A stretch of 64,000 nucleotides of DNA from Rhodobacterales bacterium (lineage in GTDB: Bacteria > Pseudomonadota > Alphaproteobacteria > Rhizobiales > Stappiaceae): positions 1-64,000 of the forward strand of contig VIRH01000044.1 of assembly GCA_008107755.1 (NCBI GenBank). Direction: 5' to 3'. How positions within the stretch are numbered: position 1 is the first letter of the stretch; each line of letters opens with the position of its first letter. Of the stretch, positions 15,717 to 64,000 are shown piece after piece. The notes beneath the pieces are model-generated. The model was not told the origin of the DNA. It saw only the letters and a program-made list of their open reading frames with translations, and did not search any database. The translations under genes and the position numbers were made by a program.

Positions 15717-16934
15717 ATGATGCGAATTGCTTTGCCGATTGCTGTTCTTGGCGCGGCTGCCCTTTTTCTGTACGCCTATGGCTCGGCTGGCAGCGGTGAT
15801 GCCACGGCTGAGAGTGTCGCCACGCCGCCGCCTGCCGAAGTCGGTGTCATCAAGGTCGTCGCACAGGATATCAAGGTCGCGGCGGAACTGCCCGACCGTA
15901 TCAATCCCGCTCGCATCGCCGAGGTTCGCCCTCGGGTCGGCGGCATCATTCTTGAGCGCGTGTTCGAGCAAGGCAGCAACGTGAACAAGGGCGACGTGCT
16001 GTTCCGGATTGATCCCATCACCTACGAAGCTGCTGTCGAAGCGGCGCGAGCAGGGGTCGCACGGGCAGAAGCGGTATTGCTGGATGCGACGCAAAGCGAA
16101 AGCCGGATTTCGCAGCTCGAGAAACGCAAGGTGTCGAGCACTGCCGAACTCGATCGCACGAAGGCCGCGCGCCTCCAGGCGGAAGCGGAACTCGCTGCCG
16201 CCAAGGCCGAGCTGCACCGCGCCGAGATCGATCTGAGCTTCACAAAGGTTACTGCGCCAATCACCGGCCGTATCGGCCGCGCCAGTGTAACCGAGGGTGC
16301 CCTTGTGTCCGCTGGCGGCGCCGAGGTGATGACGACGATCCAGGCGCTGGATCCAGTCTACGCGGACATCCTTCAGCCGGTGTCGGAGCTTCTCGCGCTG
16401 CGCCGCGCCCTGGAAAGCGGGGCGTTGAAGGAGCTCGAGCCGGGCGTCGCGCAGGCTCGTCTCTATCTGGATGACGGCGGTGCCTACCCCCATCCCGGCC
16501 GTCTCCTGTTCTTCGAAGCGACCGTGGAGCGAACCAGTGGACAGGTCATTCTACGCGCCGAGTTCCCCAACGCCGGAAACGTCCTGCTTCCCGGGATGTA
16601 CGTCCGCGTCAAGGTCGACCAGGCCATGCAGAGCGATGCCCTTGCGGTGCCGAGCCAGGCTGTACAGCGTGACGCGTCCGGTGCGGCCCAGGTCTATGTC
16701 GTTACCGATGAGAACACCGCGGTGCTTCGACCCGTGACCCTTGGCCATCCAGTCGGCAACCGCGTCGTGGTCCTTGCAGGCCTTGAGGAGGGAGATCGTG
16801 TTGTCGTCGATGGGTTTCAGAAGATCCGCTCTGGTGCAGCGGTGAAATCGGTGCAGTGGATCGACCCGACCACATCCGTCGAGACGCGGGTCGACGATAG
16901 CGCGCAGGCCGCGTCCACCCCCGCCTCGAACTGA
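15717..16934 (+). CDS. RND efflux periplasmic adaptor (membrane fusion protein)
   Basis: A 405-residue adaptor of the AcrA/MexA type. It has an N-terminal hydrophobic anchor (MMRIALPIAVLGAAALFLYA) without a lipobox Cys, then the lipoyl-like half motif AEVRPRVGGIILERVFEQGS and an alpha-hairpin rich in Ala, Glu and Lys (residues about 95-175). Further beta-barrel and membrane-proximal parts follow (VTAPITGRIGRASV). It bridges the inner-membrane pump encoded next (16 nt downstream) to an outer-membrane channel. Tandem ATGs at 15717 and 15720 are both possible. Expression is probably repressed by the divergent TetR protein. Confidence 0.88.
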   Translation: MMRIALPIAVLGAAALFLYAYGSAGSGDATAESVATPPPAEVGVIKVVAQDIKVAAELPDRINPARIAEVRPRVGGIILERVFEQGSNVNKGDVLFRIDPITYEAAVEAARAGVARAEAVLLDATQSESRISQLEKRKVSSTAELDRTKAARLQAEAELAAAKAELHRAEIDLSFTKVTAPITGRIGRASVTEGALVSAGGAEVMTTIQALDPVYADILQPVSELLALRRALESGALKELEPGVAQARLYLDDGGAYPHPGRLLFFEATVERTSGQVILRAEFPNAGNVLLPGMYVRVKVDQAMQSDALAVPSQAVQRDASGAAQVYVVTDENTAVLRPVTLGHPVGNRVVVLAGLEEGDRVVVDGFQKIRSGAAVKSVQWIDPTTSVETRVDDSAQAASTPASN

Positions 16935-23373: not shown

Positions 23374-24666
23374 TCAGACGACGACTTCCACTGCCTTTTG
23401 CGCACCGACATCGAAGACGCGCTTGTAGCGTTCGATCTGGTCGTCCGGGCCCATGGCCTTGTTCGGGTTGTCGCTGAGCTTGACTGTCGGGCGGCCGTTC
23501 GCGGAAACCGCCTTGCACACCAGGGAAAAGGGGGCGAGGGCGTCGTCGGTGGTGAGGCCGCGAAAATCGTTCGTCAGCAGCGTTCCCCAGCCAAAGGACG
23601 TCCGGACGCGGCCCTGGAACTGCTTGTGCAGCTCGATGATTTTGTCCGTGTCCAGCCCATCGGAAAAGATGACGAGCTTCTGAGTTGGGTCCTCGCCGCG
23701 TGAGCGCCACCAGTCGATCGCCGCTTCTGCTCCCTGTGCAGGGTCGCCCGAGTCGATACGGATGCCCGTCCAGCTGGTCAGCCAGTCAGGCGCATGCTCT
23801 AGAAATCCTTTGGTGCCATAAGTATCCGGCAAAATGATGCGCAGGTTGCCTTCATGCTCCTCGTGCCAGTCTCGCAGCACATCGTAGGGGGCGGCGGCGA
23901 GTTTCTCGTCCGTCATTGCGAGAGCAGAATAGATCATCGGTAGCTCGTGGGCATTGGTGCCGACTGCCTCCAGATCGCGTTGCATGGCAATGTGGCAATT
24001 GGACGTGCCGGTGAACTTGTTGCCAAGGCCTTCGATCATCGCCTGAACGCACCAGTCCTGCCACAGGTAGGAGTGCCGCCTGCGGGTGCCGAAGTCGGCA
24101 ATCTTGAGACCTTCGAGCGGTTGCAGGCGCTTGATCTTTTCCCAGAGCTTGGCCATGGCCCGGGCATAGAGGATCTGAAGTTCAAACCTCTTCATGGAAT
24201 TGAGCACGGCGCGCGAGCGCAGTTCCATAAGGATCGCGAGGGCCGGGATCTCCCAGAGCATCACTTCCGGCCAGGCGCCTTCGAACGTCAGTTCGTACTG
24301 TCCGTCCCGCTTTTCCAGATGGTAGGGCGGCAGGCGCAGGTTCTCGAACCATTCCATGAAGTCGGAACGGAACATCTGCCGCTTGCCGTAAAACATGTTT
24401 CCGCGCATCCAGGTGCTCTCGCCTCGGCTGAGGGAGAGCGAGCGTACATGGTCGAGTTGCTCGCGCAGTTCGCCTTCATCGACCATCTCGGCCAGGCGGA
24501 CGGACCTGGAGCGGTTGATCAGGGAAAACGTCACTTTGGTGTCCGGCTTGTTTCGGAACACAGACTGACACATCAGGAGTTTGTAGAAATCCGTGTCTAT
24601 AAGGGACCGGACGATCGGATCGATCTTCCATTTGTGATTATAGACGCGAGTAGCAATATCGACCAT
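23374..24666 (-). CDS. pncB: Nicotinate phosphoribosyltransferase
   Basis: A 430-residue enzyme that joins nicotinate and PRPP to nicotinate mononucleotide with ATP hydrolysis, the entry of the Preiss-Handler NAD salvage route. Characteristic segments are [33 protein letters not shown] (the His of this region is the phosphorylated residue in the family), GTSNCHIAM and [19 protein letters not shown]. The ATG at 24666 is preceded by a strong AGGAGG; the open frame reaching 24849 includes IS-like sequence and is ignored. The gene is intact, although both flanks are IS debris, so it has been kept under selection. Confidence 0.94.
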
Positions 24667-24988
24667 GTCCCTGGTTTTCCTCCTGTAATGGCGCGCATAA
24701 GGTAGGAGAGGAACCCGGATTGCAAGCCCTTGGCCGGGTTGAAGTGACCTGCCCTTAGGTGAGGAACTGCACCAAGCGGGCACACGCTGAGGCCCCGCAG
24801 TGGCGCCCGGAAGTCCGGGGTCAGCATGAACGGAGACATGTCCGGGCACAAGTGGTCAATCCAGAAACGTTGCATCAACGCGGCAGCGAGGTGCGCGATC
24901 AGAAATCCAGTAGATGGTCAATCAGACGACGACGCCTGCTGGTGCCGAGAACAAGCCCGCGCTGCAACATTCAAAAGCGAGCCGGGCA

Positions 24989-25423
24989 ATGGGCAAGAAG
25001 GTCAAGGGCCGCAAGCGCCACATCGTCACCGATACGCTTGGGGTGATGCTGTTCGTGCTTGTCCACGCCGCCGACATCTAGGGCCGGGACGGTGCGCCCG
25101 ATGTTCTGAAAGCCATCCGGTACCGGTTCCCCTGGCTGCGCCATGTCTTCGCCGACGGCGGCTACGCGGGTGAAAAGCTACGCGCCGCCCTGGTGGGCAA
25201 CGGCAAGTGGACGATCAAGATCATCAAACGCTCCGATGCAGCCAAGGGTTTCGAGGTCCTGCCCCGCAGATGGGTTGTGGAGCGCACATTCGCGTGGCTG
25301 GGCAGATGTCGCCGGTTGGCCAAGGACTGCGAGGCGTCAATCGAAAGCTCCACCGCATGGGTAAACATCGCCAGCATCAGGATCGTGACACGCAGGCTCG
25401 AAACCTATTTTGCTATCTCATGA
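24989..25423 (+). pseudogene. IS5-family transposase remnant with in-frame TAG
   Basis: One frame encodes MGKKVKGRKRHIVTDTLG, a TAG stop at 25079-25081 after VLVHAADI, then RYRFPWLRHVFADGGYAGEK and RRWVVERTFAWLGRCRRLAK to a TGA at 25423. These are the second Asp (ADGGYAG) and Glu (VVERTF) parts of the DDE domain of IS5/IS427-group transposases. The first Asp domain is absent. Truncated and nonsense-mutated, so inactive. The flanks 24667-24988 and 25424-25513 hold no recognisable gene. Confidence 0.85.
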
Positions 25424-25513
25424 ACTTTTGAATCGGAACCTAAAGGCCCGTTTGCATTGTTCCTTTCAGAGCAGTTATCCAGCCCTGTTTCTTGGTCAGG
25501 CTCCGGTTTTGAT

Positions 25514-26947
25514 TTATGCACGCCATCCGACAATGCCCTTGATCTCAAGGAAATCATGAATGCCCCAATCGGCGTATTCCCGTCCATTCCCGGATTGCTT
25601 GTAGCCTCCGAAAGGGGCCATGGGATCGTGGTCGGGATAATTGATATAGACTGATCCGGCCCTTAATTTCCTCGCCATGCGTCTCGCGCGCGGAATGTCA
25701 CCGGCCTGGATGTAAGCGGCAAGGCCATAGACGCTGTCGTTCGCCAGAGCGATGACCTCTTCATCAGTCTCGTAAGGCAGGATGGCGAGCACCGGTCCGA
25801 AAATCTCGTCCCGGGAGATTGTCATGTCCGGCGCAACGCCGCCAAATACAGTCGGCTTCACATAAAACCCGGTCTGCATCCCGTCCGGTCTTCCAGGCCC
25901 TCCCGTCACCAGGACAGCGCCTTCGTCCTGGGCGATCGAGATATAGGACTGGATCTTGTCAAACTGCACTTGGCTGATGACGGGCCCCAGGTCGTTCGAC
26001 GTATCCGAAGGTTCGCCGACTTTCAGGGAGGCGGCCGCCTGTTTCGCGATTTCAAGCGCGCGTTCATACTGGGCGCGCGGAACGTACATGCGGGTTGGCG
26101 CGTCGCATGATTGTCCGGAGTTACTGAAGCATGATTGAACGCCCATGGTTACGGAGCTCTCAAGGTCGGCGTCATCCAAGATGATGTTTGCCGATTTGCC
26201 GCCGAGTTCCTGGGCAACGCGCTTCACGGTGTCGGCGGCCGCTTTCGCCACGGCCACGCCCGCCCTTGTGGACCCTGTGAACGAGACCATATCGGCCTCG
26301 GGATGTTCAGCCATCAGTTGACCGGCGTCCGGTCCGGTCCCGTTGATGAGATTGAAGACACCGGGTGGCGTTCCGGCCGCGTCCATGATCTCTGCAAATA
26401 TGATCCCCGACATCGGAGCGATCTCCGATGGCTTCAGGACGACGGTACAACCTGCTGCCAGAGCCGGGGCGACCTTGCAGACGATCTGGTTCATCGGCCA
26501 GTTCCAGGGCGTGATCAATGCGCAGACGCCGATCGGCTCTTTCGCAATCAAGGATGTGCCCCGTACCTCATCGAAGCTCATGTCGCGCAGAACCTTTATG
26601 GTCGCATTCAAATGCGCGACGCCAACGGCCACCTGCTCGTCCCTTGAGAACGAAATCGGACACCCGAGCTCGCGCGTGATTGCCTGCGCCAGGTCTTCAG
26701 CGCGCTTCTCATACTCGACGCAAATTCTCTCCAGCAAAGCCACGCGCTCTTCCTTCGTAGAGAAGGCAAAGGTTTCGAACGCAGCTCGCGCGGCCTTCAT
26801 CGCCCTGTCCACATCTGCGGATCCTCCCAGTGCGATCTTGGCGAACGATTTTTCCGTTGAGGGGTCGACGACGTCGAGTGTGATGTCCGTCGAGGAGGGC
26901 GACCACGCGCCATCGATGAAGAAATTCAGGTCGTTCTTGGTGTACAT
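25514..26947 (-). CDS. NAD-dependent aldehyde dehydrogenase (polyamine-derived aminoaldehyde type)
   Basis: A 477-residue aldehyde dehydrogenase with all hallmarks: the VTPW-like cofactor start ITPWNWPMNQIVCKVAPALA, nucleotide loop SFTGSTRAG, general base Glu in QELGGKSAN, and nucleophile Cys in NSGQSCDAPTRMYVP. EIFGPVLAI lies near the C-terminus. The ATG at 26947 is chosen because upstream codons overlap the previous gene. It lies 32 nt downstream of the acetylpolyamine amidohydrolase gene in a polyamine transport operon, so the likely substrate is 4-aminobutyraldehyde, 3-aminopropanal or an acetylated analogue formed by the aminotransferase encoded at 33404 (inference). Confidence 0.85.
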   Translation of the reverse strand: MYTKNDLNFFIDGAWSPSSTDITLDVVDPSTEKSFAKIALGGSADVDRAMKAARAAFETFAFSTKEERVALLERICVEYEKRAEDLAQAITRELGCPISFSRDEQVAVGVAHLNATIKVLRDMSFDEVRGTSLIAKEPIGVCALITPWNWPMNQIVCKVAPALAAGCTVVLKPSEIAPMSGIIFAEIMDAAGTPPGVFNLINGTGPDAGQLMAEHPEADMVSFTGSTRAGVAVAKAAADTVKRVAQELGGKSANIILDDADLESSVTMGVQSCFSNSGQSCDAPTRMYVPRAQYERALEIAKQAAASLKVGEPSDTSNDLGPVISQVQFDKIQSYISIAQDEGAVLVTGGPGRPDGMQTGFYVKPTVFGGVAPDMTISRDEIFGPVLAILPYETDEEVIALANDSVYGLAAYIQAGDIPRARRMARKLRAGSVYINYPDHDPMAPFGGYKQSGNGREYADWGIHDFLEIKGIVGWRA

Positions 26948-26979
26948 ATCATCCACTTTGTCATGTTGAAACGTTGCCC

Positions 26980-28011
26980 TCAGGCGCTCTCGAAGCCCTG
27001 AAGCACCGCGAGCACGTTCTCGCCGACAGCCTCGACCGCGTAACCGCCCTCCATCACGAAAAGAGTCGGCAGCCCCATTTGCGCGATCAGTGCTCCCGTC
27101 TGACGGAAATGCTCTTTCCGCAGTTTGAAGCGGCTGATGGGATCGCCTTCGAACGTGTCGACACCCAGGGAAACGACAAGCCTTTCCGGCGAGAACGAGC
27201 GAACCTCCCCAAGCGCGTGTTCGAGGGCTTGCGACCAGGCAGACCATTCCGTGCCCGCGGGCATGGGATAGTTGACGGTGAAGCCCAGACCTGGACCTGC
27301 GCCTTTTTCTTCCGCCGCACCGATGTAGAACGGATACTCGTAGCTGGGATCGGCATGCAGGTTCACGACTTGAACATCATCGCGTTCGTAAAAGATTTCC
27401 TGCGTCCCGTTGCCGTGATGATAGTCGATGTCAAGGACCGTGACGCGGTCGGCACCCGAGTTGCGCAAACGCTGGGCGGCAACAGCCGCGTTATTGATGA
27501 AACAGTACCCGCCTGCGAAATCCGGGCCGGCATGATGTCCAGGTGGCCGGCAAAGGGCGAATGCAGCGGGGTTGCCGGCACTGACGATATCGGCGCCTGT
27601 GAGCACCGTGTCGTGCGAGGCCTTGACGGCCTCCCACGTCCCGCGGACGAACCCGGTACTCGCATCGAAGGAGTAATAGCCGAGGAGACCATCAAGGCTC
27701 GTAGGCCGCACGCGACCACGTAGTCCGCGGCTCGGCCAGGCGTATGGAAGCGCCGTACCTGAGCGGCCGTCTCTCTCCCACATGTCCCAAGCCTTCGAGA
27801 GAAACTCAAGATAGTCGGGCACGTGGATCTGCCTGGCCGTTTCCAGGTCGTGTGTCTCCGGTTCAAGGACCTGACCGAGGTCCGCCCGCTTGAGACTCGA
27901 CAGGATGAATTCCGACCTGGCGTGCGTCTCGAAACCTGGCACGAGCTCGCCGTTATAGAGTTCGTGATGGTCACGATGCCCGAGTTGCTTGTTCGAAAAG
28001 ATCGTTTTCAT
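26980..28011 (-). CDS. aphA: Acetylpolyamine amidohydrolase (histone deacetylase family)
   Basis: A 343-residue class II histone-deacetylase-fold enzyme. Zinc and catalytic residues are visible in RPPGHHAGPDFAGGYCFINN (tandem His) and VLDIDYHHGNGTQEIFY (Asp and His ligands), with a third Asp in SLGVDTFEGDP. It resembles acetylpolyamine amidohydrolases, which deacetylate acetylputrescine, acetylcadaverine or acetylspermidine in the cytoplasm. The gene lies between the Pot permeases and the aldehyde dehydrogenase, all in one direction, consistent with import, deacetylation and oxidation of acetylated polyamines. No signal peptide. Confidence 0.85.
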   Translation of the reverse strand: MKTIFSNKQLGHRDHHELYNGELVPGFETHARSEFILSSLKRADLGQVLEPETHDLETARQIHVPDYLEFLSKAWDMWERDGRSGTALPYAWPSRGLRGRVRPTSLDGLLGYYSFDASTGFVRGTWEAVKASHDTVLTGADIVSAGNPAAFALCRPPGHHAGPDFAGGYCFINNAAVAAQRLRNSGADRVTVLDIDYHHGNGTQEIFYERDDVQVVNLHADPSYEYPFYIGAAEEKGAGPGLGFTVNYPMPAGTEWSAWSQALEHALGEVRSFSPERLVVSLGVDTFEGDPISRFKLRKEHFRQTGALIAQMGLPTLFVMEGGYAVEAVGENVLAVLQGFESA

Positions 28012-28041
28012 GTGCTGACCGAATAACCTTGGAAGGAGGTG

Positions 28042-54731: not shown

Positions 54732-56192
54732 TCAGAACAGTGAGAAATACTCCCGCTGTTCCCATTCGGAGACGGTCATCAGATAGCGCGCCCATTCGGC
54801 GTGCTTGATGCGCGAGAGATAGGAACAGAGTTCGGATCCGATCGCCTGAGGGTAGAAGCTGCTTGCGTCGAAGTGCTCGAGTGCGGCAATCAGGCTCTTG
54901 GGCAGGCTGGCTGCTTCGCTTGTGTAGGGGTTTTCGACCGGGGCAGGGGCCCGCAACTCGCGTTTGATCCCGTCATGACCTGACACGATCTGCGACAGCA
55001 TGAAGAGATAAGGATTTGCGGTCGGCTCCCCGACGCGGTTCTCGATCCGGCTTGCCTTGTCGCCCGGTGCCATCAGCCCACGGATCATGGCGCCCTTGTT
55101 GTCGCGGCCCCACTGGATGCGGTCGGGGGCGAGTTGATACGGCTGGTAGCGTTTGTAGCCATTGACCGTCGGCGTCGTCATGAGGCAGCTTTCCGCCGCA
55201 TGCTCCAGCAGGCCTGCGATCCAGCTGTCGGCAATCGGCGTCAGCCCGTCGGCGGTCTCCGGTATCATCAGATTGGCCCCCGTCGCCACATCGACGATGG
55301 ACTGATGCATGTGCCAGCCGCTGGGGATGATCCCTTCCAGCTTTGGCCGGCACATGAACGTCGCATGCAGGCCCTTGCGGGCGCAGATCTGCTTGACCGC
55401 CGAGCGGAAAAGCAACGTGTCGTCCGCATTTTGCAGCGGTGAACCGGGCTCGAAGGTGAATTCGCACTGGCTCGGACCGAATTCCGCCTCCATGGAACGC
55501 ACCGGCAGTCCCAGTGCCTGGCACGCCCGGCGCAGGTCGTCCATGACCTCTTCGAGCGCGTCGTAGCGCGCCTCCGTCAGATACTGGTAGCCATGGGAGA
55601 TCAGGCTGGTCTCGGGTGGTGTGGCCGGCATGCCGGTGTCTTCATGAGAGAGACGGGCGTTCTCCATGCGGAACACGTAGAACTCGAACTCCAGGCCGCA
55701 CTTGAGGGCATAACCGTCCCGAGCGAGATCGGCCGTTGCGTCCTTCAGGGCGGTGCGCACGCAGAAGGGCATCTTGCTGCCGTCCTTGTAGCGCACGTCG
55801 CACAGCATCCAGCCGCTGTGCGGTGACCAGGGCAGAACCTTGAACGTCGACGGATCGGGCAGGACCAGAACGTCGCCCGCGCCCGTCAGCGTGTTGGTCC
55901 CCAGTCCTATATCGTCCTCCCAGACGGGAAAAACCGTTCGGTGGGAGGTGTCCTTCAGCAGCAGCGTCGAGGTCATGGCCATGCCGCTGCGAAAGGCGGA
56001 CGCCAGCCCCGAGGCAACGATGGTCTTGCCTCGCAGGATGCCATGCTGGTCCGCGAAGGCCAGGCGCACAGTTTCTAGGCCTTTGGCGTCGATTTGATCA
56101 ATGACGTCGGCTGCCATCCGCAGCTCTTCATCGCTGTACCAGCCCTTGTCGGACTCAAGATCTGCCGGCGTGGTCTTGGAGGTGGCGCCCAC
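54732..56192 (-). CDS. Glutamine synthetase-family ligase (gamma-glutamylamide synthetase-like)
   Basis: A 486-residue member of the glutamine synthetase fold. Family positions are visible: metal Glu cluster in KCGLEFEFYVF and MEAEFGPSQCEFTF, ATP region KGLHATFMCRPKLEG, GWHMHQSI (the His of GxGxHxHxS), and IENRVGEPTANPYLFMLSQI. The adenylylation Tyr region of GlnA is not seen. Relatives outside GlnA ligate glutamate to amines such as putrescine, isopropylamine or aniline. It is the third gene of a tight operon with ferredoxin reductase and flavodoxin genes, divergent from oxygenase genes. This resembles aniline degradation, where gamma-glutamylation precedes Rieske oxygenation (inference). 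Confidence 0.85.
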   Translation of the reverse strand: MGATSKTTPADLESDKGWYSDEELRMAADVIDQIDAKGLETVRLAFADQHGILRGKTIVASGLASAFRSGMAMTSTLLLKDTSHRTVFPVWEDDIGLGTNTLTGAGDVLVLPDPSTFKVLPWSPHSGWMLCDVRYKDGSKMPFCVRTALKDATADLARDGYALKCGLEFEFYVFRMENARLSHEDTGMPATPPETSLISHGYQYLTEARYDALEEVMDDLRRACQALGLPVRSMEAEFGPSQCEFTFEPGSPLQNADDTLLFRSAVKQICARKGLHATFMCRPKLEGIIPSGWHMHQSIVDVATGANLMIPETADGLTPIADSWIAGLLEHAAESCLMTTPTVNGYKRYQPYQLAPDRIQWGRDNKGAMIRGLMAPGDKASRIENRVGEPTANPYLFMLSQIVSGHDGIKRELRAPAPVENPYTSEAASLPKSLIAALEHFDASSFYPQAIGSELCSYLSRIKHAEWARYLMTVSEWEQREYFSLF

Positions 56193-56195
56193 GAT

Positions 56196-56660
56196 TCAAA
56201 CTTCCTTCGATTGCTCGGAAAACGTTGCAAGAACCTCGGTGATCCACGGCAACGCCAGGTCTTCCGGCATGTCGTCGCCGGAGGCATCATGCGTCATGCG
56301 CTCACCGATCTGGGTTGCGCCGCATGCCTTGAGGAGGTCCGCGAGCCTGATGGACCCGTGGGTGAATGTCTCGGCATATTCGGCATCGCCCAGTCCGAAC
56401 ACAGCAAAGGAGATGCCAGACAGGTCTGGCCGGTTCTGTTCAAGCGATTGCGCAAAAGGCCGGGCGGACTCCGGCAGTTCGCCGTCACCATAGGTGGAGC
56501 AGACGATCACGTGGAAAGTCTCCTTGCCCAAGTCGGCGGGATCGACATCGCAGAGGTTTGCGCAATCGACCTGGTGGTCGTCGCTCAGCGCCGTCTCGAT
56601 GTCATCGGCGAGCATTTCCGCATTCCCGGTTTCGGTCCCGTAGAGGACGCAAATCTTCAT
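56196..56660 (-). CDS. Flavodoxin-like electron carrier (MioC/flavodoxin family)
   Basis: A 154-residue flavodoxin-fold protein. The FMN phosphate loop is VLYGTETGNAEMLADDIE, the second loop VCSTYGDGELPESARPFAQS and the third FAVFGLGDAEYAETFTHGSI, resembling the CysJ/MioC class. ATG 56660 fits; stop and next start are 3 nt apart. With the reductase gene directly upstream (4-nt gap) it forms an NAD(P)H to flavodoxin chain. The natural acceptor is probably the divergent Rieske protein or the oxygenase (inference). Confidence 0.85.
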   Translation of the reverse strand: MKICVLYGTETGNAEMLADDIETALSDDHQVDCANLCDVDPADLGKETFHVIVCSTYGDGELPESARPFAQSLEQNRPDLSGISFAVFGLGDAEYAETFTHGSIRLADLLKACGATQIGERMTHDASGDDMPEDLALPWITEVLATFSEQSKEV

Positions 56661-56664
56661 GAAG

Positions 56665-57912
56665 TCAGTCCCTCTGTCTCGCAGCATGGAGGAGGTCGTC
56701 GGTTGAGGTGAATTTCCGCCGGCAGCGGGATGGCGCGGCAAGGGCCTGTTCCGCCGCGTCGATGCGTTGCCAGCCGGCGAAGTCGATCAGCTCGGGGAGG
56801 CCCGCGAAGATCTCGTTGCCGACACGTGCCGGATCAATGCTGAGCTCTTTCAGGATCATGGCAGCGGTCGCCTGTGCGTCGGAGCGGCTTTGCGCGATGG
56901 TGCCGCGTGGTCCATGTCGAAACCAGCCGGCGCCATATAGACCGTCATCCAGTTTGCCATCGGGAAGGGCGCCGCCGGAAAGCAACGCCTCCCGGCCCAG
57001 GTCGCCGGCGGACGCAAAGCCGATGGCGGTAATGATCGATGTCGCCTTGATGACATCCCTGCCGCCCGTGCCTTCCACCGCAAGCCCGGTGACGCGGTCC
57101 ACTCCCTCAATGGCAGTCGGCTGCAGTCCGAAGCGGAAGACCACACGGACAGGGCCTTCGCCATGACCATCGATATCGGTCAGTGCCTGTTGGCGTTTCT
57201 GCGTGTCCGGATCGTCGGACGGCGCGAATTTCTCGACTTCGATGCTGACATTCGACAGCTTGCCGAGTTCCCGCACCATCACCGGGTCGAACTTTGCGTG
57301 CGCAGCGGGCGAGCGGCCGACGATCGTCAGACGTTCAATGCGGTTTGCTGCCAGCCATGCGGTTGGGCCCGGCCCCAGGTCCGAACCGTCGAGCTCCGCG
57401 GGCGTCTTGCACATGAGACGCAGCAGATCGAGGGCGACATTTCCGTTGCCCAGGATCACGGGATGAGATCCGAGGTCCGGCAGGGACACAGCCTGCGGGT
57501 GCTCGTTGAGTGCGCGTGTCAACTTGGCGGAGCCATGAACGCCAGGCAGATCCTCACCGGGAATATTCAAACGCCGGTCTGCGGAAAGCCCCGCTGCCAG
57601 AACCGTTGCGTCGTAGGCCGCGCGCAGCTGCTCAAGCGGCACATCCCGGCCGATCCGCAGATTGCCGAAGAAGCGGGCGCCCTGGCGCTCGAAGATGCGG
57701 GAAAACTGGCGTGTCACGGCCTTCGTGCCCTGATGATCGGCGGCGACGCCGTAACGAGCTAGCCCGAAGGGGACGGGGAGGGCGTCGATCAGGTCAACCT
57801 GCAGATCCGGGCGGCTCTTCAGCAGAGCCTGTGCCAGATAACATCCGGAGGGACCGGCTCCCACGATCGCTATCTTGCCTGACACTATGATGGAGCCCCT
57901 CGTCTCAGCCAT
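56665..57912 (-). CDS. FAD-dependent ferredoxin/flavodoxin reductase (adrenodoxin reductase family)
   Basis: A 415-residue two-dinucleotide-fold reductase: FAD motif KIAIVGAGPSGCYLAQALLK, then VPFGLARYGVAADHQGTKAV (a hallmark of adrenodoxin-reductase/FprA-type enzymes), NADP region PVILGNGNVALDLLRLMCKT, and a C-terminal GAGWFRHGPRGTIAQSRSDA FAD-contact stretch. ATG 57912 lacks a clear ribosome site; GTG 57885, just before SGKIAIVG, is a good alternative. Such enzymes pass NADPH electrons to 2Fe-2S ferredoxins or flavodoxins. First gene of the leftward operon reductase-flavodoxin-GS-like. Confidence 0.87.
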   Translation of the reverse strand: MAETRGSIIVSGKIAIVGAGPSGCYLAQALLKSRPDLQVDLIDALPVPFGLARYGVAADHQGTKAVTRQFSRIFERQGARFFGNLRIGRDVPLEQLRAAYDATVLAAGLSADRRLNIPGEDLPGVHGSAKLTRALNEHPQAVSLPDLGSHPVILGNGNVALDLLRLMCKTPAELDGSDLGPGPTAWLAANRIERLTIVGRSPAAHAKFDPVMVRELGKLSNVSIEVEKFAPSDDPDTQKRQQALTDIDGHGEGPVRVVFRFGLQPTAIEGVDRVTGLAVEGTGGRDVIKATSIITAIGFASAGDLGREALLSGGALPDGKLDDGLYGAGWFRHGPRGTIAQSRSDAQATAAMILKELSIDPARVGNEIFAGLPELIDFAGWQRIDAAEQALAAPSRCRRKFTSTDDLLHAARQRD

Positions 57913-58025
57913 CCGCAGACGGACACCTGCCGCAGGCAGCTCCGTAAAACTGTCCTGAGGGGATATCCCTGCTTGCATTCAGCCAGCCCGTCCCGGCCGA
58001 TTGACTCCATTCGAGAATGAAGTAT

Positions 58026-58049
58026 GTTCGATATTCGAACTTATGTTCG
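58026..58049. promoter_or_regulatory. Palindromic half-site array between divergent oxygenase and reductase operons
   Basis: GTTCGATATTCGAAC (58026-58040) is a palindrome overlapping CGAAC-TTAT-GTTCG (58036-58049); TATGTTCG is also repeated 19 bp apart. The 15-mer resembles the IclR-family PcaR box (GTTCGATAATCGCAC, recalled) and the site upstream of the TRAP genes. Likely operator of the IclR regulator encoded at 60825. Confidence 0.6.
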
Positions 58050-58127
58050 TATAACGCACATATTCTTAGTCGTAAATCAGATTGTGTCAATCAACGAAAC
58101 GCGCAGCGCAGAGAGAGTGGAACGACT

Positions 58128-58565
58128 ATGGGGGCTGTCATGGAGAAAAGCACGGAAGAGACGAATGCGACGCCGCCGGATGCATGGGTCAGGGCGGCTC
58201 TTGCAAGCGACCTGGACATCCCGCGTCCTGTCATTCCGATCACCCTGTTCGGGCAGTCTCTTGTTCTTTTCCGTGACGACGAGGGCGAACTCGGACTGAT
58301 CGGCCGCCATTGCCCGCACAGGGGCGCGGATCTGTGTTTCGGCCGACGCGAGGACAATGGTCTTCGCTGCCCCTTCCACGGCTGGCACTTCGACCGCACG
58401 GGTCAGTGCGTCGAACAGCCTGCCGAGCCGGAGGATTCCACCATGTACAAGACTATCAAGCTTCCCAGCTATCCGCTGATGGAAAAAGATGGTGTCATCT
58501 TCACCTATATGGGCAGGGGCGAGCCGGACGATGACACGGCCTTTGCCGATCCGTCCCTCACCTGA
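58128..58565 (+). CDS. Stand-alone Rieske [2Fe-2S] protein related to oxygenase alpha N-terminus
   Basis: A 145-residue protein consisting of a Rieske domain. Cluster ligands: Cys62 and His64 in RHCPHRGADLCFG, Cys81 and His84 in LRCPFHGWHFD, with exact CxH-x16-CxxH spacing. After it, LPSYPLMEKDGVIFTYMG corresponds to the strand that links the Rieske domain to the catalytic domain in oxygenase alpha subunits, then the protein ends; no catalytic domain follows. ATG 58128 is chosen, 58140 is possible. The next gene encodes a matching catalytic subunit whose Rieske cluster is missing, so the two probably act together. Confidence 0.85.
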   Translation: MGAVMEKSTEETNATPPDAWVRAALASDLDIPRPVIPITLFGQSLVLFRDDEGELGLIGRHCPHRGADLCFGRREDNGLRCPFHGWHFDRTGQCVEQPAEPEDSTMYKTIKLPSYPLMEKDGVIFTYMGRGEPDDDTAFADPSLT

Positions 58566-58628
58566 GCCACTTGCACATTGACGTGCCGGCGATGCATCGG
58601 GCGCGCCGAGAGATCGAAGGACAATCAC

Positions 58629-59855
58629 ATGATCACTCAGAAGCTGAACGATCAGATTACCCGCGTCGGACCGGGAACCTCCGCCGGCGAAGTGTTGCGC
58701 CGATACTGGCAGCCGGCCGCCCTCGTCGATGAGCTCACCGAGGAGCGCGCCCTCGTTCCTGTCAACCTGCTCGGAGAACGGCTGGTGCTTCTGCGCCAGC
58801 AGGACGGCAATCTCGTCCTGAAGACCCGCATCGCATCGGCAGATGAAGCCCCGGCCTTCTATCCGGAGCCGGATGCGATCGAGATCGTGGAAGACAGCCC
58901 GGCCTATCCCGTGATCGAGAAGAAGGGCATGTACTTCGCCTACATGGGCCCGGGCGAACCGCCCGCTTTTGCAAACTTCGACTGCTTTCGCGCACCCGAC
59001 AGCCATGTCTTCGCCTTCAAGGGACTGTGGCAATGCAACTGGTTGCAGGCGCTGGAGGTGGGCATCGATCCGTCGCATGCCTCCTTCCTGCATCGCTTCC
59101 TGCAGGACGAAGACCCGGAAAACAGCTACGGCCGGCAGTTCCGCGACAAGGCGGCCCACACGGACATGCCGATGACCCAGGTCCTGCGCGAATATCCGCG
59201 CCCGGACATCGAAGTCGAGGAAACGGATTTCGGCCTCAAGATCACGGCCCTGCGGCACATGGATAATGATCTGACCCATGTGCGGGTCACCAACCAGATC
59301 TTCCCGGAAGCGATCTGCATCCCCATGTCGCGGGAAATGACGATCACGCAGTGGCACGTGCCGATCGATGATGAGAACTGCTACTGGTACTCACTCTTCA
59401 CCAGTTTCGCCAAGCCGGTCGACAAGCAGGTCATGCGTGAGCAGCGGCTGACGGAGCATCGGCTGCCCGACTACGCCCCTTTGAAGAACCGCGCCAACGA
59501 CTACCATTTCGACCCGGAAGAACAAGCATCGCTGACGTACACGGGCATGGGGCTCGACATCAATGTGCATGACCAGTGGGCGGTCGAAAGCATGGGCTCC
59601 ATCCAGGACCGGACCCGCGAGCACCTGGGGCGCGGCGACGCGGCCATCGTCCGCTACCGCCTGATGCTGCGCAAGGCAATCAAGGCGGTCGAAACCAGTC
59701 GCGAGGGCGCGCTTCCCATGCGCGATGAGGCAACCACCGCCATCGTGGGGCCGCTGTCCAATGACGCCATCACCGCTACGGGGGAGTGGCTGGCGGCCAG
59801 TCAGGCAGCCGATCACGAGCGCCGCGCCGAGTGTCCGTGGGATGCGACGGTCTGA
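58629..59855 (+). CDS. Ring-hydroxylating oxygenase catalytic subunit lacking its Rieske cluster
   Basis: A 408-residue oxygenase alpha-type protein. Start matches phthalate-type oxygenases (TRVGPGTSAGEVLRRYWQPA, LVPVNLLGERLVLL). Where the CxH...CxxH cluster should lie, residues 61-91 form a short Cys- and His-free connector; the frame resumes at AYPVIEKKGMYFAYMGPGEP. The mononuclear iron motif is intact: ALEVGIDPSHASFLHRFL with Asp147, His150 and His155 (Dx2Hx4H). INVHDQWAVESMGSIQDRTR is the later conserved part. AAGGA precedes ATG 58629. Catalysis would need an external Rieske donor, presumably the upstream protein; NdmC of caffeine demethylation is a known Rieske-less precedent. The substrate is unknown. 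Confidence 0.85.
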   Translation: MITQKLNDQITRVGPGTSAGEVLRRYWQPAALVDELTEERALVPVNLLGERLVLLRQQDGNLVLKTRIASADEAPAFYPEPDAIEIVEDSPAYPVIEKKGMYFAYMGPGEPPAFANFDCFRAPDSHVFAFKGLWQCNWLQALEVGIDPSHASFLHRFLQDEDPENSYGRQFRDKAAHTDMPMTQVLREYPRPDIEVEETDFGLKITALRHMDNDLTHVRVTNQIFPEAICIPMSREMTITQWHVPIDDENCYWYSLFTSFAKPVDKQVMREQRLTEHRLPDYAPLKNRANDYHFDPEEQASLTYTGMGLDINVHDQWAVESMGSIQDRTREHLGRGDAAIVRYRLMLRKAIKAVETSREGALPMRDEATTAIVGPLSNDAITATGEWLAASQAADHERRAECPWDATV

Positions 59856-59917: not shown

Positions 59918-60649
59918 ATGACCATCGCCTGTGATCCGGAACTGCGTTCGCTCAGCGGACGCCCGTTCGAAGATATCCTCGACGGATATTTCCCGTTGCG
60001 CGAAAGCGTGAGGCAGCTTCTGCAGCGTCAGGGGTTCAAGGCCATGTGGATCACCCTTCTGCAAGCGCCTATCATGCACATTGAGGGGCTGGCACCCGAG
60101 GCGCCCGTGCCGCTGCACCTGCGCAAGATCTATTCCGGCATGATCGATCACATGCTTCTGCTTGCCGTTTCATCCGCGCCCGATGGGGCCGGTGGGACGG
60201 GAGAGATGCAGCTATCTGGTAAAGGAGACTGGTTCTTCGCAGAGGCAGAAGAGGATCGTGACGTCTTTCCCGATCTCATTCGGCTCGGAGAACCGGCGTT
60301 CGTGCGCGGGATTGGCATCTCCGGATTTGAGACAGAAAACGAAAAAACCGGTCTTGCACTGACTCAGACCGACAGCCGCGAACGGTCCATTCAGGCCGCT
60401 ACTGCCCGGCTTGGCTGGACGGGCGGGCTGGGCTTCCGCCTTGGATCAGCCGAAGGCGCCATCTGTCGGCGATCAGGCCTGGACGGCCAGTTCATCCCTT
60501 TCGGATCGGTTCCCGGCGCGTTCCAGGACCGGCCCGAAGAATGGCCTTTGCCCTTGCCGGACTTCCTGAGACCCGCCAGCTGGCTTTTGCTTGATACCAG
60601 CCAGGGCGCGTTTGATCGCGAAACGCAGGAAGTGGCAATGCGCCTCTGA
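59918..60649 (+). CDS. Conserved-looking hypothetical protein in the oxygenase cluster
   Basis: A 243-residue soluble protein beginning MTIACDPELRSLSGRPFEDI, 62 nt after the oxygenase gene and in the same direction. No signal peptide, membrane helix or cofactor motif was recognised. Hydrophobic helices alternate with acidic loops (GKGDWFFAEAEEDRDVFPDL), and the C-terminal half is Gly/Pro rich. No family can be assigned. Its place between the oxygenase and IclR genes suggests a role in the same pathway, perhaps as a partner, chaperone or later enzyme. Confidence 0.65.
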   Translation: MTIACDPELRSLSGRPFEDILDGYFPLRESVRQLLQRQGFKAMWITLLQAPIMHIEGLAPEAPVPLHLRKIYSGMIDHMLLLAVSSAPDGAGGTGEMQLSGKGDWFFAEAEEDRDVFPDLIRLGEPAFVRGIGISGFETENEKTGLALTQTDSRERSIQAATARLGWTGGLGFRLGSAEGAICRRSGLDGQFIPFGSVPGAFQDRPEEWPLPLPDFLRPASWLLLDTSQGAFDRETQEVAMRL

Positions 60650-60725
60650 CGCTGCCTTTGTAGCCAGTGCTCGAAACCTCCCGATCCGGCGTCTTCTTGT
60701 GTTTTTGCAGGCCGACCCATTTATT

Positions 60726-60742
60726 GTCACGCAAATCGTGAC
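60726..60742. promoter_or_regulatory. Palindrome upstream of the IclR gene
   Basis: GTCACG-CAAAT-CGTGAC, 6-bp perfect arms, 83 bp before the IclR start codon; a further GTGAC lies at about 60751. Candidate autoregulatory operator or promoter-proximal dyad. Confidence 0.4.
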
Positions 60743-60824
60743 TATTCAGAGTGACGTAGAAGCAAGCACACAAGTGGACCGGACCGGCAATGCCGACGCG
60801 GGCCGCCAAAAGGAGCAGCCAGAC

Positions 60825-61604
60825 ATGCAGGCGGACGCCGGGGAGCGCAAGATTCAGGACCGTGACATCTCCCTGACCTTTGCAAAGGGCATGGCGGTCT
60901 TGAAGGCGTTCGACACGAGCTCGACCCATCTGACCCTGCCGCAGATCGCCAAGATAACGGGACTGGACCGGGCCACGACGCGCCGACTGGTGCTGACCCT
61001 CGTGCACCTTGGCTATGTCAAACAGGAAGACAGGGTGTTTTCCCTGACGCCGCGCATTCTGGTGCTGGCGGGCGGCTTCCTGCAGGGTCGCCAGTTCGGC
61101 AAGACCATCGAGCCGGTCATGCGCAGTTTCTCCAACCAGATCTCGGAGCCGATTTCGATGGCGATGGTGGATGGCGATCAGGCTGTCTATGTTGCCCACG
61201 CCGGAGCAAAGGCCAATTCCGTCAGCATCGGATTTACCGTCGGCTCCAGGCTGCCCCTGCTCAGCAGCGCCATCGGCCGCGCGCTCCTGGCCGGATTTCC
61301 CGCAGCGGAAGCCGAAGAACTGATCGCCTCGGCGCCGCTGACGCCTTATACGGATGTCACCAACCTCGACCGGGCCTCCATTTCAGCTGACGTGGCGGAG
61401 ATTTCGCGTCGCGGATATTCCTCTGTCATTGGCGAATTCGAGGCCGGGGTCGCGGCCATAGCGGTCCCCATCCGCTCGGACAATGCCGAACCCGGCGCGA
61501 TCGGCGTTTCAGGGGACGCCTCGCGTTTCGAAGATCCGCAAGTGAGGCAGAACATCATTGCCACACTGCGCGAGTGCGCCAAGGTGCTCGCAGGTCTGCT
61601 TTGA
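60825..61604 (+). CDS. IclR family transcriptional regulator (PcaR/PobR-like)
   Basis: A 259-residue IclR protein: winged helix at about 20-80 (LTFAKGMAVLKAFDTSSTHL, AKITGLDRATTRRLVLTLVH, LGYVKQEDRVFSLTPRIL), then the effector domain with GSRLPLLSSAIGRALLAGFP and GEFEAGVAAIAVPIRSDN typical of the beta-ketoadipate regulator subgroup. ATG 60825 has AGGAG at good spacing; the frame open to 60591 is ignored. It lies between the oxygenase and TRAP operons and presumably controls both through boxes at 58026 and 61722. Confidence 0.87.
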   Translation: MQADAGERKIQDRDISLTFAKGMAVLKAFDTSSTHLTLPQIAKITGLDRATTRRLVLTLVHLGYVKQEDRVFSLTPRILVLAGGFLQGRQFGKTIEPVMRSFSNQISEPISMAMVDGDQAVYVAHAGAKANSVSIGFTVGSRLPLLSSAIGRALLAGFPAAEAEELIASAPLTPYTDVTNLDRASISADVAEISRRGYSSVIGEFEAGVAAIAVPIRSDNAEPGAIGVSGDASRFEDPQVRQNIIATLRECAKVLAGLL

Positions 61605-61778: not shown

Positions 61779-62792
61779 ATGAAATTCAAAGTCCTATCCG
61801 CAACGCTTGTCTCCCTCGGCCTGTTCGCCACGGCATCAAAGGCCGAGACGCTTCGCTATGCTCACTTCATGCCGGCACAGAGCTGGCAGCAGAGCACCAT
61901 GTTTGAAGCCTGGGCGGATGCTGTCGACAAGGAGTCCGACGGCGAACTGAGCGTGAAGATCTTCCCGGCCCAGACACTCGGCAAGGCCCCCAGCGGCTAC
62001 GACAACGCGAAGAATGGCGTTGCCGACATTGCCTGGACGGTCCAGGGCTATACGGCCGGCCGTTTTCCGCTGAGCCAGATCATGGAACTGCCGGGTTTGT
62101 TCAAGACCGCCGAAGTCGGCTCCTGCGCCTTCCAGAAGCTTTATGAATCCGGCGCTCTCGATGAAGAATACAAGGACACCCACGTCCTCTTCGTCCACAC
62201 GCATGGCCCCGGCCAGCTGCACATGGGCAACGAGCCGGTGAAGGCCCTTGGCGATCTGAAGGGTCTCAAGCTGCGCCGCCCGACTGCGGTGATCGGCACG
62301 CTTCTTGGAGAGCTGGGCGCAGAGCCTGTCGGCCTGCCTGCGCCGGCCATCTATGAAAACCTCGAACGCGGTGTGATCGACGGCTACATGCTGACCTGGG
62401 AGTCCGTGGAAGCCTTCCGTCTGGCGGAACTGACAAAATATCACACTGACTTCGGCTTCTATTCGCTCGCCTTTGTCACCACGATGAACAAGCGCAAGTA
62501 TGACGCCCTCTCTCCCAAGGCCAAGGCGGCCGTGGATGCCAACTCCGGCATGAAATGGTCGCTGATCGCGGGCAAGGGGTACGACGACGCGGATGCCGCC
62601 GCCATTCAGTCCCTCAAGGACAGCTCCGAAACCTTCGAGATTCCGGAGGCGGAAATGGCGGAATGGCAGGCAGCCGCTGCCCGCGCAAAAGACATCTACC
62701 TGAGTGAACTGGATGGGAAGGGTCTTCCGGGTACGGAAACCTACAAGGCGGTCCAGGGCTACGTCAGTGAGTGTCAGTCCGAACTGAACTGA
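61779..62792 (+). CDS. dctP: TRAP transporter substrate-binding protein (DctP family)
   Basis: A 337-residue periplasmic binding protein. Signal peptide MKFKVLSATLVSLGLFATAS with cleavage near SKA-ET; mature part TLRYAHFMPAQSWQQSTMFE; conserved Arg region DLKGLKLRRPTAVIGTLLGE; ENLERGVIDGYMLTWESVEA. It belongs to a different subgroup than the DctP at 10485. It presumably collects the substrate of the oxygenase module for DctQM, encoded next. Preceded by a promoter and operator candidates at 61654-61736. Confidence 0.9.
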   Translation: MKFKVLSATLVSLGLFATASKAETLRYAHFMPAQSWQQSTMFEAWADAVDKESDGELSVKIFPAQTLGKAPSGYDNAKNGVADIAWTVQGYTAGRFPLSQIMELPGLFKTAEVGSCAFQKLYESGALDEEYKDTHVLFVHTHGPGQLHMGNEPVKALGDLKGLKLRRPTAVIGTLLGELGAEPVGLPAPAIYENLERGVIDGYMLTWESVEAFRLAELTKYHTDFGFYSLAFVTTMNKRKYDALSPKAKAAVDANSGMKWSLIAGKGYDDADAAAIQSLKDSSETFEIPEAEMAEWQAAAARAKDIYLSELDGKGLPGTETYKAVQGYVSECQSELN

Positions 62793-62879
62793 TCAGCAGT
62801 ACTGATCGAGAGGGGCGGGGGCCCGGTGACAGTCTGCGCCGGGTTCCATCGATTTGTCGCGGGACGGGACGGAAGCGAG

Positions 62880-63410
62880 ATGAGCAGATCGGCACATCAT
62901 CACGACCTCATGTCGCGGGTGGTCTCGGTCACCACGCGCGCATGCGAGGTTGTCGCAAGCACGGCCATTCTGGGGCTGTTTGGCGTGGTTGCGATCAATA
63001 TCCTGATGCGGGCACTGTTCGATGCCTCGGGCGCGGAGATCAATCTGATGATCCCCGGCGCCGTGGAACTGGCGAAATATGCGCTGTTGATCGCCGTCTT
63101 TGCCGCCCTGCCGGCTGCGCTGGAAAACGGCCTGATCCGGGTGGATGTCCTGACCGGCTTGATGTCGAGGCGCTCGCAGGCGCTCATCGACCGCTTCTGG
63201 TTCCTGGCGCTTTTTCTCTTTGTCGCCGCTCTGGTCTGGCTCTTCGCTGCGCAGGGTGTGGAAACCTGGGAGCGGGGCGAGGTCACGCAGGACTGGGGGA
63301 TCCCGCTCTGGATCTTTTACATGGTCATCGCTGTTGAATGCGCAGCCTTCGCGGTGGTCTCGCTCGCCGTCACCCTCAACCCTGCCCTGATCAAATCGGA
63401 GCCGGCGTAA
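62880..63410 (+). CDS. dctQ: TRAP transporter small permease (DctQ family)
   Basis: A 176-residue membrane protein with four hydrophobic helices; VVAINILMRALFDASGAEIN after the first helix is the DctQ pattern. ATG 62880 has GGAAG upstream and is chosen over GTG 62826. Stop and next start overlap (TAATG). Small subunit of the second TRAP carrier. Confidence 0.87.
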   Translation: MSRSAHHHDLMSRVVSVTTRACEVVASTAILGLFGVVAINILMRALFDASGAEINLMIPGAVELAKYALLIAVFAALPAALENGLIRVDVLTGLMSRRSQALIDRFWFLALFLFVAALVWLFAAQGVETWERGEVTQDWGIPLWIFYMVIAVECAAFAVVSLAVTLNPALIKSEPA

Positions 63411-64000
63411 TGGATCCTTTGTTTGTCGGCCTGGTGTCCATCGCGTTTCTTTTCGTGATCGTTCTGCTTGGCGCTCCGGTCGGATTGGCCATGGCCATTG
63501 TCGGTGTCGGCGGTTTCGGCGTGATCGTCGGTTTTGACGCCGCATTCTCGGTGTTGCAGACATCCGCTTTCGAGACGGCTTCCAGCTATTCCTTCACCCT
63601 CGTGCCGCTCTTCATGCTGATGGGCAACCTGATATCCCAGTCGGGCATGGCTGCCGATCTTTTCCGCGGTGCGGAGCGGCTGACCCGGGGACAACCGGGC
63701 GGGCTTGGGGTCGCAGGTGTCACCGCAAGCGCGGTCTTTTCCACGGTCTCCGGTTCCTCCCTTGCCACAGCCTCGACAATGACGAAGGTCGCCTATCCGG
63801 AGATGCTGAAACGCGGATATGATCAGCGTCTTGCGGCCGGGTCGCTGGCGGCCGGCGGCACGCTCGGCATCATGATTCCTCCCTCGATCGCCCTGCTGCT
63901 TTATGCGCTGATCACCGAACAGTCGGTGGGCGAGATGTTTCTGGCCGGCATCCTCCCGGGCGTTCTGGGGTATGTTCTCTACGTGATCACGGTGCAGATC
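63410..64000 (+). CDS. dctM: TRAP transporter large permease (DctM family), N-terminal part (cut by window edge)
   Basis: The ATG at 63410 overlaps the dctQ stop. The 197 codons present encode MDPLFVGLVSIAFLFVIVLL, the loop TLVPLFMLMGNLISQSG and VFSTVSGSSLATASTMTKVA, conserved in DctM, then GTLGIMIPPSIALLLYALIT. The reading frame is open to the right edge, so about half of the usual 430 residues lie outside. Forms the ion-coupled channel of the second TRAP system. Confidence 0.9.
   Translation, partial: MDPLFVGLVSIAFLFVIVLLGAPVGLAMAIVGVGGFGVIVGFDAAFSVLQTSAFETASSYSFTLVPLFMLMGNLISQSGMAADLFRGAERLTRGQPGGLGVAGVTASAVFSTVSGSSLATASTMTKVAYPEMLKRGYDQRLAAGSLAAGGTLGIMIPPSIALLLYALITEQSVGEMFLAGILPGVLGYVLYVITVQI

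Follow-up and report, generated by a model that had tools for sequence, protein, structure and literature searches.

Gene content of the locus

The window analysed here, i.e. the whole stretch of 64,000 nucleotides (positions 1 to 64,000) of contig VIRH01000044.1 from a Rhodobacterales bacterium (assembly GCA_008107755.1, Stappiaceae in GTDB), carries two adjacent genes on the forward strand that resemble the two parts of a Rieske non-heme iron oxygenase. The first (58128..58565) encodes P0001, a Rieske-only protein of 145 amino acids (aa), which is an alpha-subunit-derived N-terminal domain without a catalytic domain. The second (58629..59855) encodes P0002, a Rieske-less catalytic subunit of 408 aa. 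A Rieske domain and a mononuclear iron site in one chain are found in neither, P0001 having only the former and P0002 only the latter, together with the catalytic fold and descent of an alpha subunit and its D-x2-H-x4-H motif. A third forward-strand gene (59918..60649), here called U, follows and encodes 243 aa. It was overlooked in the original prediction, made from the sequence alone, which had described the pair as a split oxygenase.

To compare the locus with its relatives, P0002 served as query against contigs from one genome per species, and the best 80 loci of at least 591 confirmed relatives were kept; the count of split loci is thus a lower bound. Loci were called split if the catalytic protein lacked the Rieske motif, so that its absence from all 24 is by construction. 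These 24 comprise 20 of the best 80, the window, G026 (locus L008, from the same genus) and two plasmids, and contain near-duplicates, such as two strains of Pseudooceanicola marinus. Among 13 plasmid records with a P0002 match, four were examined, two being split (L107 and L108) and two full-length (L109 and L110).

P0001 has a single Pfam match, the Rieske domain (PF00355, E 1.2e-20), and its [2Fe-2S] ligand stretch, C62-x-H64 to C81-x2-H84 (58311..58379, + strand), is in place, as foreseen by the original prediction. The four ligands are invariant in an alignment of 20 sequences, and CxH-x16-CxxH is present in 24/24 Rieske-only homologues. Six of the seven NCBIfam matches of P0001 are oxygenase subunits or monooxygenases and one is a ferredoxin. 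Other Rieske-bearing places in the genome reach at most 34% identity to it. The protein terminates shortly beyond the linker, as had been noted. A linker common to both genes is clear in the window, but it is degraded in several of the Rieske-only homologues.

P0002 matches LigXa_C (PF19301, E 1.2e-27), and no Rieske domain was matched in it by the Pfam scan. The mononuclear iron motif D147-x2-H150-x4-H155 (59067..59093, + strand), which the original reading had found intact, is invariant in its three residues among 30 aligned sequences, and G[IV]DPxHAS[FY]LHR was found in 24/24 split catalytic proteins. By Foldseek, the structural model of P0002 resembles isophthalate and phthalate dioxygenases (9ina, E 3.8e-26); its pLDDT is below 50 at residues 151-163, 166-174 and 301-334.

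The missing part of P0002 is smaller than the half that had been assumed. The loss is a clean deletion of 29 contiguous alignment columns, empty in 24/24 split catalytic proteins and occupied in no fewer than 64 of the 65 full-length proteins aligned (L109 and L110 not among them), while the flanking strands remain. The deletion falls after residue 78 of P0002 and spans the cluster-binding loops, at whose site a short connector is found (residues 65-91; 58821..58901, + strand). P0002 retains about 78 residues ahead of the gap as well as the strands at 93-105, and in the model residues 1-110 are largely beta, with short helices at 4-11 and 18-23 and a block pLDDT of 80-97. On the strength of this model, what P0002 keeps is a cluster-less remnant of the Rieske domain. 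The connector had been described as free of Cys and His. This holds for the window's protein but not across the family, as one to three such residues occur in 18/24 split catalytic proteins, mostly in the two columns that immediately precede the deletion (13/24 and 10/24).

Conservation of the gene pair

The conserved adjacency that the original prediction proposed to look for was found, with the Rieske-only gene directly upstream of the Rieske-less catalytic gene, and on the same strand, in 24/24 loci. The two genes are tightly linked, being spaced by -4 to 66 base pairs (bp) and overlapping by 4 bp in 11/24 pairs. In G026 even the gene order is that of the window, namely glutamine-synthetase-like (GS-like) ligase, flavodoxin and FprA-like reductase on one side, and Rieske-only protein, catalytic protein, U, IclR regulator and TRAP transporter on the other. 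Ratios of non-synonymous to synonymous substitution rates (dN/dS) were computable for six of seven pairs for each gene. They range from 0.04 to 0.18, rough values given that dS is high or near saturation, and show, as far as sequence comparison goes, purifying selection on both halves.

A frameshift, an assembly error or a decaying pseudogene pair could be suspected from the clear full-length relative in the same genus (G018) and from the rarity of the split form there (2/45 genomes, the window's included). The likelihood of this is virtually negligible. Such an error, named beforehand as the result that would overturn the prediction, is ruled out by 24 loci with identical architecture and a common deletion; a split common to 24 records, with dN/dS well below 1, makes chance or sequencing error not credible. 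A Rieske domain supplied by a full-length paralogue was also considered and rejected. There is a single P0002 homologue in each of 21/21 split genomes (E <= 1e-60; several of them metagenome-assembled and possibly incomplete) and one in the window genome at E <= 0.001, so that no full-length relative was found which could lend its Rieske domain.

Judging from its anatomy, P0002 alone would be incapable of the two-electron cycle that a normal alpha subunit performs. It could therefore have ceased to be an oxygenase and have become a substrate-binding or regulatory protein, with the Rieske protein serving another enzyme. We regard this as quite improbable in view of the conserved iron motif, the low dN/dS, the invariable pairing with a Rieske gene and the lack of a full-length homologue in the genomes searched.

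The third protein

A U homologue is present in 24/24 split loci. In a whole-genome search of 50 genomes, corresponding to 50 of the best 80 loci, U was found in 13/13 split genomes vs 0/37 full-length genomes; the profile match in the genome of L033 includes a TGA. Among 385 genomes of the class, U was detected in the window's genome only. A P0002 homologue at E <= 1e-80 is held by 29 others, and its best match begins at query residue 72-91 in 28 of them, as full-length homologues give, and at residue 204 in one. In the 14-genome group around G434, a search run without a positive control found U in 0/14, while 8/14 hold a P0002 homologue. The U gene immediately follows the catalytic gene in 12 loci and the GS-like gene in the other 12, which indicates that it stays with the module despite rearrangement. 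With a dN/dS of 0.13-0.30 (5/7 pairs), U evolves faster than the Rieske and catalytic genes.

The first ~135 residues of U are conserved, and none of its Cys or His is invariant (20 sequences). It belongs to no known family by Pfam and NCBIfam, whose scans returned zero families and only chance-level matches for 20 members. The AlphaFold2 model has a mean pLDDT of 78. Its five best Foldseek matches are 2hx0, 2nmu, 2h6l, 3hwu and 2dt4 (E 5e-4 to 2e-2; TM-scores 0.19-0.42, rmsd 7-14), of which 2dt4 is PPC-type by its title and the other four are presumably so. With TM-scores this low, the fold gives weak support to a PPC-type protein. At the profile level an assignment to PCC/PPC (DUF296) was rejected, because PF03479 is absent from the matches of the 20 members and from the window genome; hhalign of U against three PCC proteins gave a probability of 0.2%. 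A glutathione-S-transferase fold did not appear among the 50 fold matches listed. We consider that U is most likely a structural subunit.

Origin of the split

Both halves appear to go back to a single event. In the catalytic-domain tree (89 rows, 24 of them split, midpoint root; L013 and L099 were dropped as they lack the trimming motif), the 24 split proteins form one clade (support 100/96), nested inside the full-length proteins. No homologue with a normal Rieske domain, which had been named as a finding that would speak against the split, falls inside this clade. Its sister is the group L045/L060/L048/L059, itself weakly supported (89/50). In the Rieske-domain tree (91 rows, 24 Rieske-only, and 103 columns, which are few for this number of rows), the Rieske-only proteins likewise form one clade (100/100), and, measured by mean path length, L059 and L048 are the full-length rows closest to them. 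Thus, full-length Mameliella proteins (L048/L059) are among the nearest to both halves. Both trees exclude L020-L026, which repeat included genomes, and the more distant full-length L014-L019, which were under the score limit.

The trees support, as the simplest history, one duplication followed by complementary loss. The original prediction of two duplicated alpha subunits with complementary halves lost is therefore upheld as to duplication and complementary loss, each half forming one clade, but not as to the extent of the loss: judged by the alignment, the catalytic copy lost the cluster-binding loops only, and not half of its length. Simple gene fission is rejected, since P0001 and P0002 have sequence in common on either flank of the missing loops: the strands preceding the deletion are present in both, and the linker has survived in those Rieske-only proteins that are closest to the window's. 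Several independent splits are unsupported, a single change being seen on each tree. We propose that an ancestral full-length alpha subunit, similar to phthalate and isophthalate dioxygenases and already paired with a GS-like ligase, would have been duplicated, after which one copy may have been reduced to its Rieske domain and the other may have lost the cluster-binding loops alone.

Neighbouring genes

Linked genes were counted in 25 split rows, in which the window and L007 are the same locus, and in 62 full-length rows, some loci being short. As the absence of a neighbour on a short contig is weak evidence, it is the whole-genome counts for U and P0002 that carry the argument.

Divergent from the Rieske gene lies a gene for an NADPH flavoprotein resembling FprA and adrenodoxin reductase (56665..57978, - strand; PDB FprA 1lqt, E 8e-50), and beyond it a flavodoxin gene (56196..56660, - strand; PF00258, E 1.2e-26) with a likely start at 56660 and an open frame from 56741. 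Homologues were found in 10/25 (reductase) and 8/25 (flavodoxin) split rows vs 0/62 full-length rows for either. G026 holds both, and 9/24 distinct split loci hold one or the other. In the window genome, the FprA-like reductase and the flavodoxin are most likely the electron supply. It would be unusual in itself for a Rieske oxygenase to be driven by a flavodoxin. By title, no paper in the open-access PubMed Central (PMC) literature describes a flavodoxin as donor to a ring-hydroxylating enzyme, an azoreductase paper being the only match. A [2Fe-2S] ferredoxin of the type found at L109 and L110 occurs in 0/25 split and 7/62 full-length rows, and the corresponding ferredoxin reductase in five full-length and two split rows (L027 and L032). 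By these counts, a linked classical donor is not seen in the majority of loci, split or full-length.

As the flavodoxin and reductase genes adjoin some split loci, the catalytic protein could also draw its electrons from the flavodoxin, or from a cofactor of U, with the Rieske protein as an accessory. This is highly improbable. These genes were not found in 15/24 split loci vs a Rieske gene in 24/24, and U has no invariant Cys or His.

A predicted gamma-glutamyl ligase of the GS-like type is encoded at 54732..56192 (- strand; PF00120, E 3e-78). Its closest solved structure is NpaA1 (8wwu, E 1.3e-126), the next one following at E 3.6e-51. The gene is present in 23/25 split and 61/62 full-length rows. 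It is missing from the split rows L007 and L008, but these are short excerpts of the window and of G026, where the gene is present. NpaA1 is reported to gamma-glutamylate aromatic amines ahead of the action of a Rieske oxygenase (PMC11335346). As NpaA1 is the nearest solved relative, the most likely substrate class is that of gamma-glutamylated amines, the amine being perhaps aromatic. By title and the start of the abstract, none of the papers listed from the open-access literature on aminobenzoate, homarine and Roseobacter describes this system.

Further genes of aromatic metabolism are found in two of the plasmid loci. In L107, a Palleronia plasmid, the split catalytic gene is followed ~8-13 kb downstream by pcaGH, pcaC, pcaD and a carboxymuconate cycloisomerase gene (23668-28030), with pcaGH at about 11 kb. 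In L108, a small protein annotated as 5-carboxymethyl-2-hydroxymuconate isomerase (16364-16702) adjoins the GS-like gene. Homologues of it occur in 8/25 split and 5/62 full-length rows, and such a neighbour hints at an aromatic substrate.

An IclR-family regulator, nearest to the PcaR/PcaU/PobR type (TIGR02431, E 8.4e-65, 218.5 bits, under the cut-off of 284.75), is encoded at 60591..61604 (+ strand), its true start being probably further in. Between the divergent FprA-like and Rieske genes, two tandem 15-mers of the form GTTCG-N5-CGNAC, 19 bp apart (58026..58059, + strand), form a double site that is unique in the genome (0 for the reversed control). The single 15-mer has four matches in the window vs 1.04 expected, a number reached by 3/100 shuffles. 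A single palindromic 15-mer also precedes the full-length gene in L055, L062 and L066, at a distance of ~46-62 bp, and none was found in the G026 region (L137). The tandem site presumably resembles the PcaR box and is a candidate operator of the PcaR/PobR-type IclR regulator.

A TRAP transporter follows at 61779..64000 (+ strand), with a solute-binding protein (61779-62792, assigned by position and the product name of the L108 homologue), DctQ (62826-63410, Pfam) and DctM (from 63338, Pfam), which runs past the end of the window. A TRAP homologue is also found in G026.

A probable two-piece oxygenase

The most probable explanation, in our judgement, is a working two-piece Rieske non-heme iron oxygenase, in which the Rieske protein reduces the catalytic iron and U is a required subunit. 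The iron of each subunit in an ordinary alpha3 enzyme receives its electrons from the Rieske domain of the adjacent subunit, and the Asp of the iron motif bridges to a Rieske His of that neighbour. D147 and the two Rieske His ligands are conserved here, so the reading with the best support is that electrons take this route from a donor in trans. Electrons would pass from NADPH through the FprA-like reductase and the flavodoxin to the Rieske-only protein in the window genome, and from there, one at a time, to the catalytic protein's mononuclear iron. The free Rieske protein would thus take the role of the neighbouring subunit's Rieske domain, and the tip carrying its cluster may enter the space vacated by the deleted loops, which is a plausible docking place. 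U may be the structural subunit that holds both halves together, a role comparable to that of NdmE, and the GS-like ligase would make the gamma-glutamylated amine on which the oxygenase acts.

Several observations weigh against the two-piece oxygenase. The remnant Rieske base still occupies the catalytic protein, so the docking geometry is not obvious, and the low-pLDDT stretches of the P0002 model prevent assignment of the third iron ligand. Distances of the Rieske protein correlate with those of the catalytic protein at 0.67, no higher than with those of the GS-like ligase (0.77), the highest correlation being that of the catalytic protein with U (0.84). The flavodoxin and FprA-like reductase cannot be taken as general donors when they were not found in 15/24 split loci, some of them short, and a homologue of the ferredoxin reductase of full-length systems turned up at L027 and L032. 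The GS-like gene is common to full-length loci, so that nothing specific to the split follows from it, and the scan of proteins surrounding the window's system revealed no recognisable ring-cleavage gene.

The retained Rieske base would also fit a different arrangement, in which the Rieske-only protein acts as a soluble ferredoxin of the Rieske type that docks transiently on the catalytic trimer, with U perhaps as a docking adaptor. No ferredoxin of the L109/L110 type is linked to the split rows, which would agree with this, but the point counts little when only 7/62 full-length rows have one. Such a ferredoxin is, in our opinion, rather unlikely. The Rieske-only protein is alpha-derived and forms one clade with the split, its sequence has remained of the alpha type, as its NCBIfam matches indicate, and the 4-bp overlap in 11/24 pairs is usual for subunits of one complex.

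A more specific version of the two-piece oxygenase, which we put forward only tentatively, is a three-protein core. Here, a catalytic trimer and three free Rieske proteins would be held by U, possibly as a trimeric PPC-like platform, the whole being driven by flavodoxin instead of ferredoxin. It would represent a second, independent removal of the Rieske domain.

Ordinary Rieske oxygenases have the cluster and the iron in one chain, so that electron transfer between them is hard to titrate or to mutate apart. Split genes would let donor and acceptor be loaded, labelled, mutated or swapped independently. Long-standing questions on electron number, timing and the gating of the iron site by the Rieske redox state would become directly testable in this way, and the locus is a naturally occurring model in which electron transfer from one part of a Rieske oxygenase to another can be studied. 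By title and the start of the abstract, no paper in the open-access PMC literature describes a free-standing Rieske protein of this kind, which is a weak absence.

Comparison with known systems

The nearest relatives are the full-length GS-linked oxygenases (L045, L048, L059 and others), with 65-72% identity to P0002 over aligned columns (ten aligned). They have a complete Rieske domain in one chain, and U was not found in the 37/37 genomes searched. Among solved structures, the isophthalate and phthalate dioxygenases of Comamonas testosteroni KF1 (9ina and 7fjl) are the best structural matches of the catalytic model, with 25-28% identity. Together with 7fhr, they are also its best solved sequence relatives; TMq is 0.65-0.73 in the first 16 matches listed, 7fhr included. 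The chains of 9ina and 7fjl match the Rieske-only profile too, and thus have both domains in one chain, unlike the split system.

The aniline (AtdA1-A5) and 1-naphthylamine (NpaA1-A5) dioxygenases share with the window a GS-like gene, their ligase gamma-glutamylating the aromatic amine before the Rieske oxygenase acts. They are described as having an oxygenase with a large and a small subunit (A3A4), a reductase of their own and a GAT-like enzyme (PMC11335346). Neither a small subunit A4 nor a GAT-like A2 was among the Pfam matches obtained for 26 proteins from the window and its immediate surroundings, a subset of the open reading frames in which P0001 and P0002 were included.

The closest precedent is the one named in the original prediction, NdmC with NdmD. 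NdmCDE is the 7-methylxanthine N7-demethylase of Pseudomonas putida CBB5 (PMC4408171). Both systems have an oxygenase component without a Rieske cluster, a Rieske domain in trans and a linked third protein, yet they are built differently. In NdmCDE, the Rieske domain is an extra domain on the reductase NdmD, whereas P0001 is free-standing, 145 aa long, one-domain and alpha-derived. As P0001 is not fused to a reductase and its homologues form one clade, the view of a free-standing, alpha-derived donor as a different solution is borne out. The required third protein NdmE is glutathione-S-transferase-like, whereas U matches no family; U echoes NdmE in that its family has so far been met only in systems whose Rieske domain lies outside the catalytic chain. 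Finally, the catalytic protein lies inside the phthalate/LigXa-like group, a difference judged from the published description of NdmC. The window's system thus has its logic in common with NdmCDE but none of the tested parts beyond the oxygenase superfamily, and is not a member of it.

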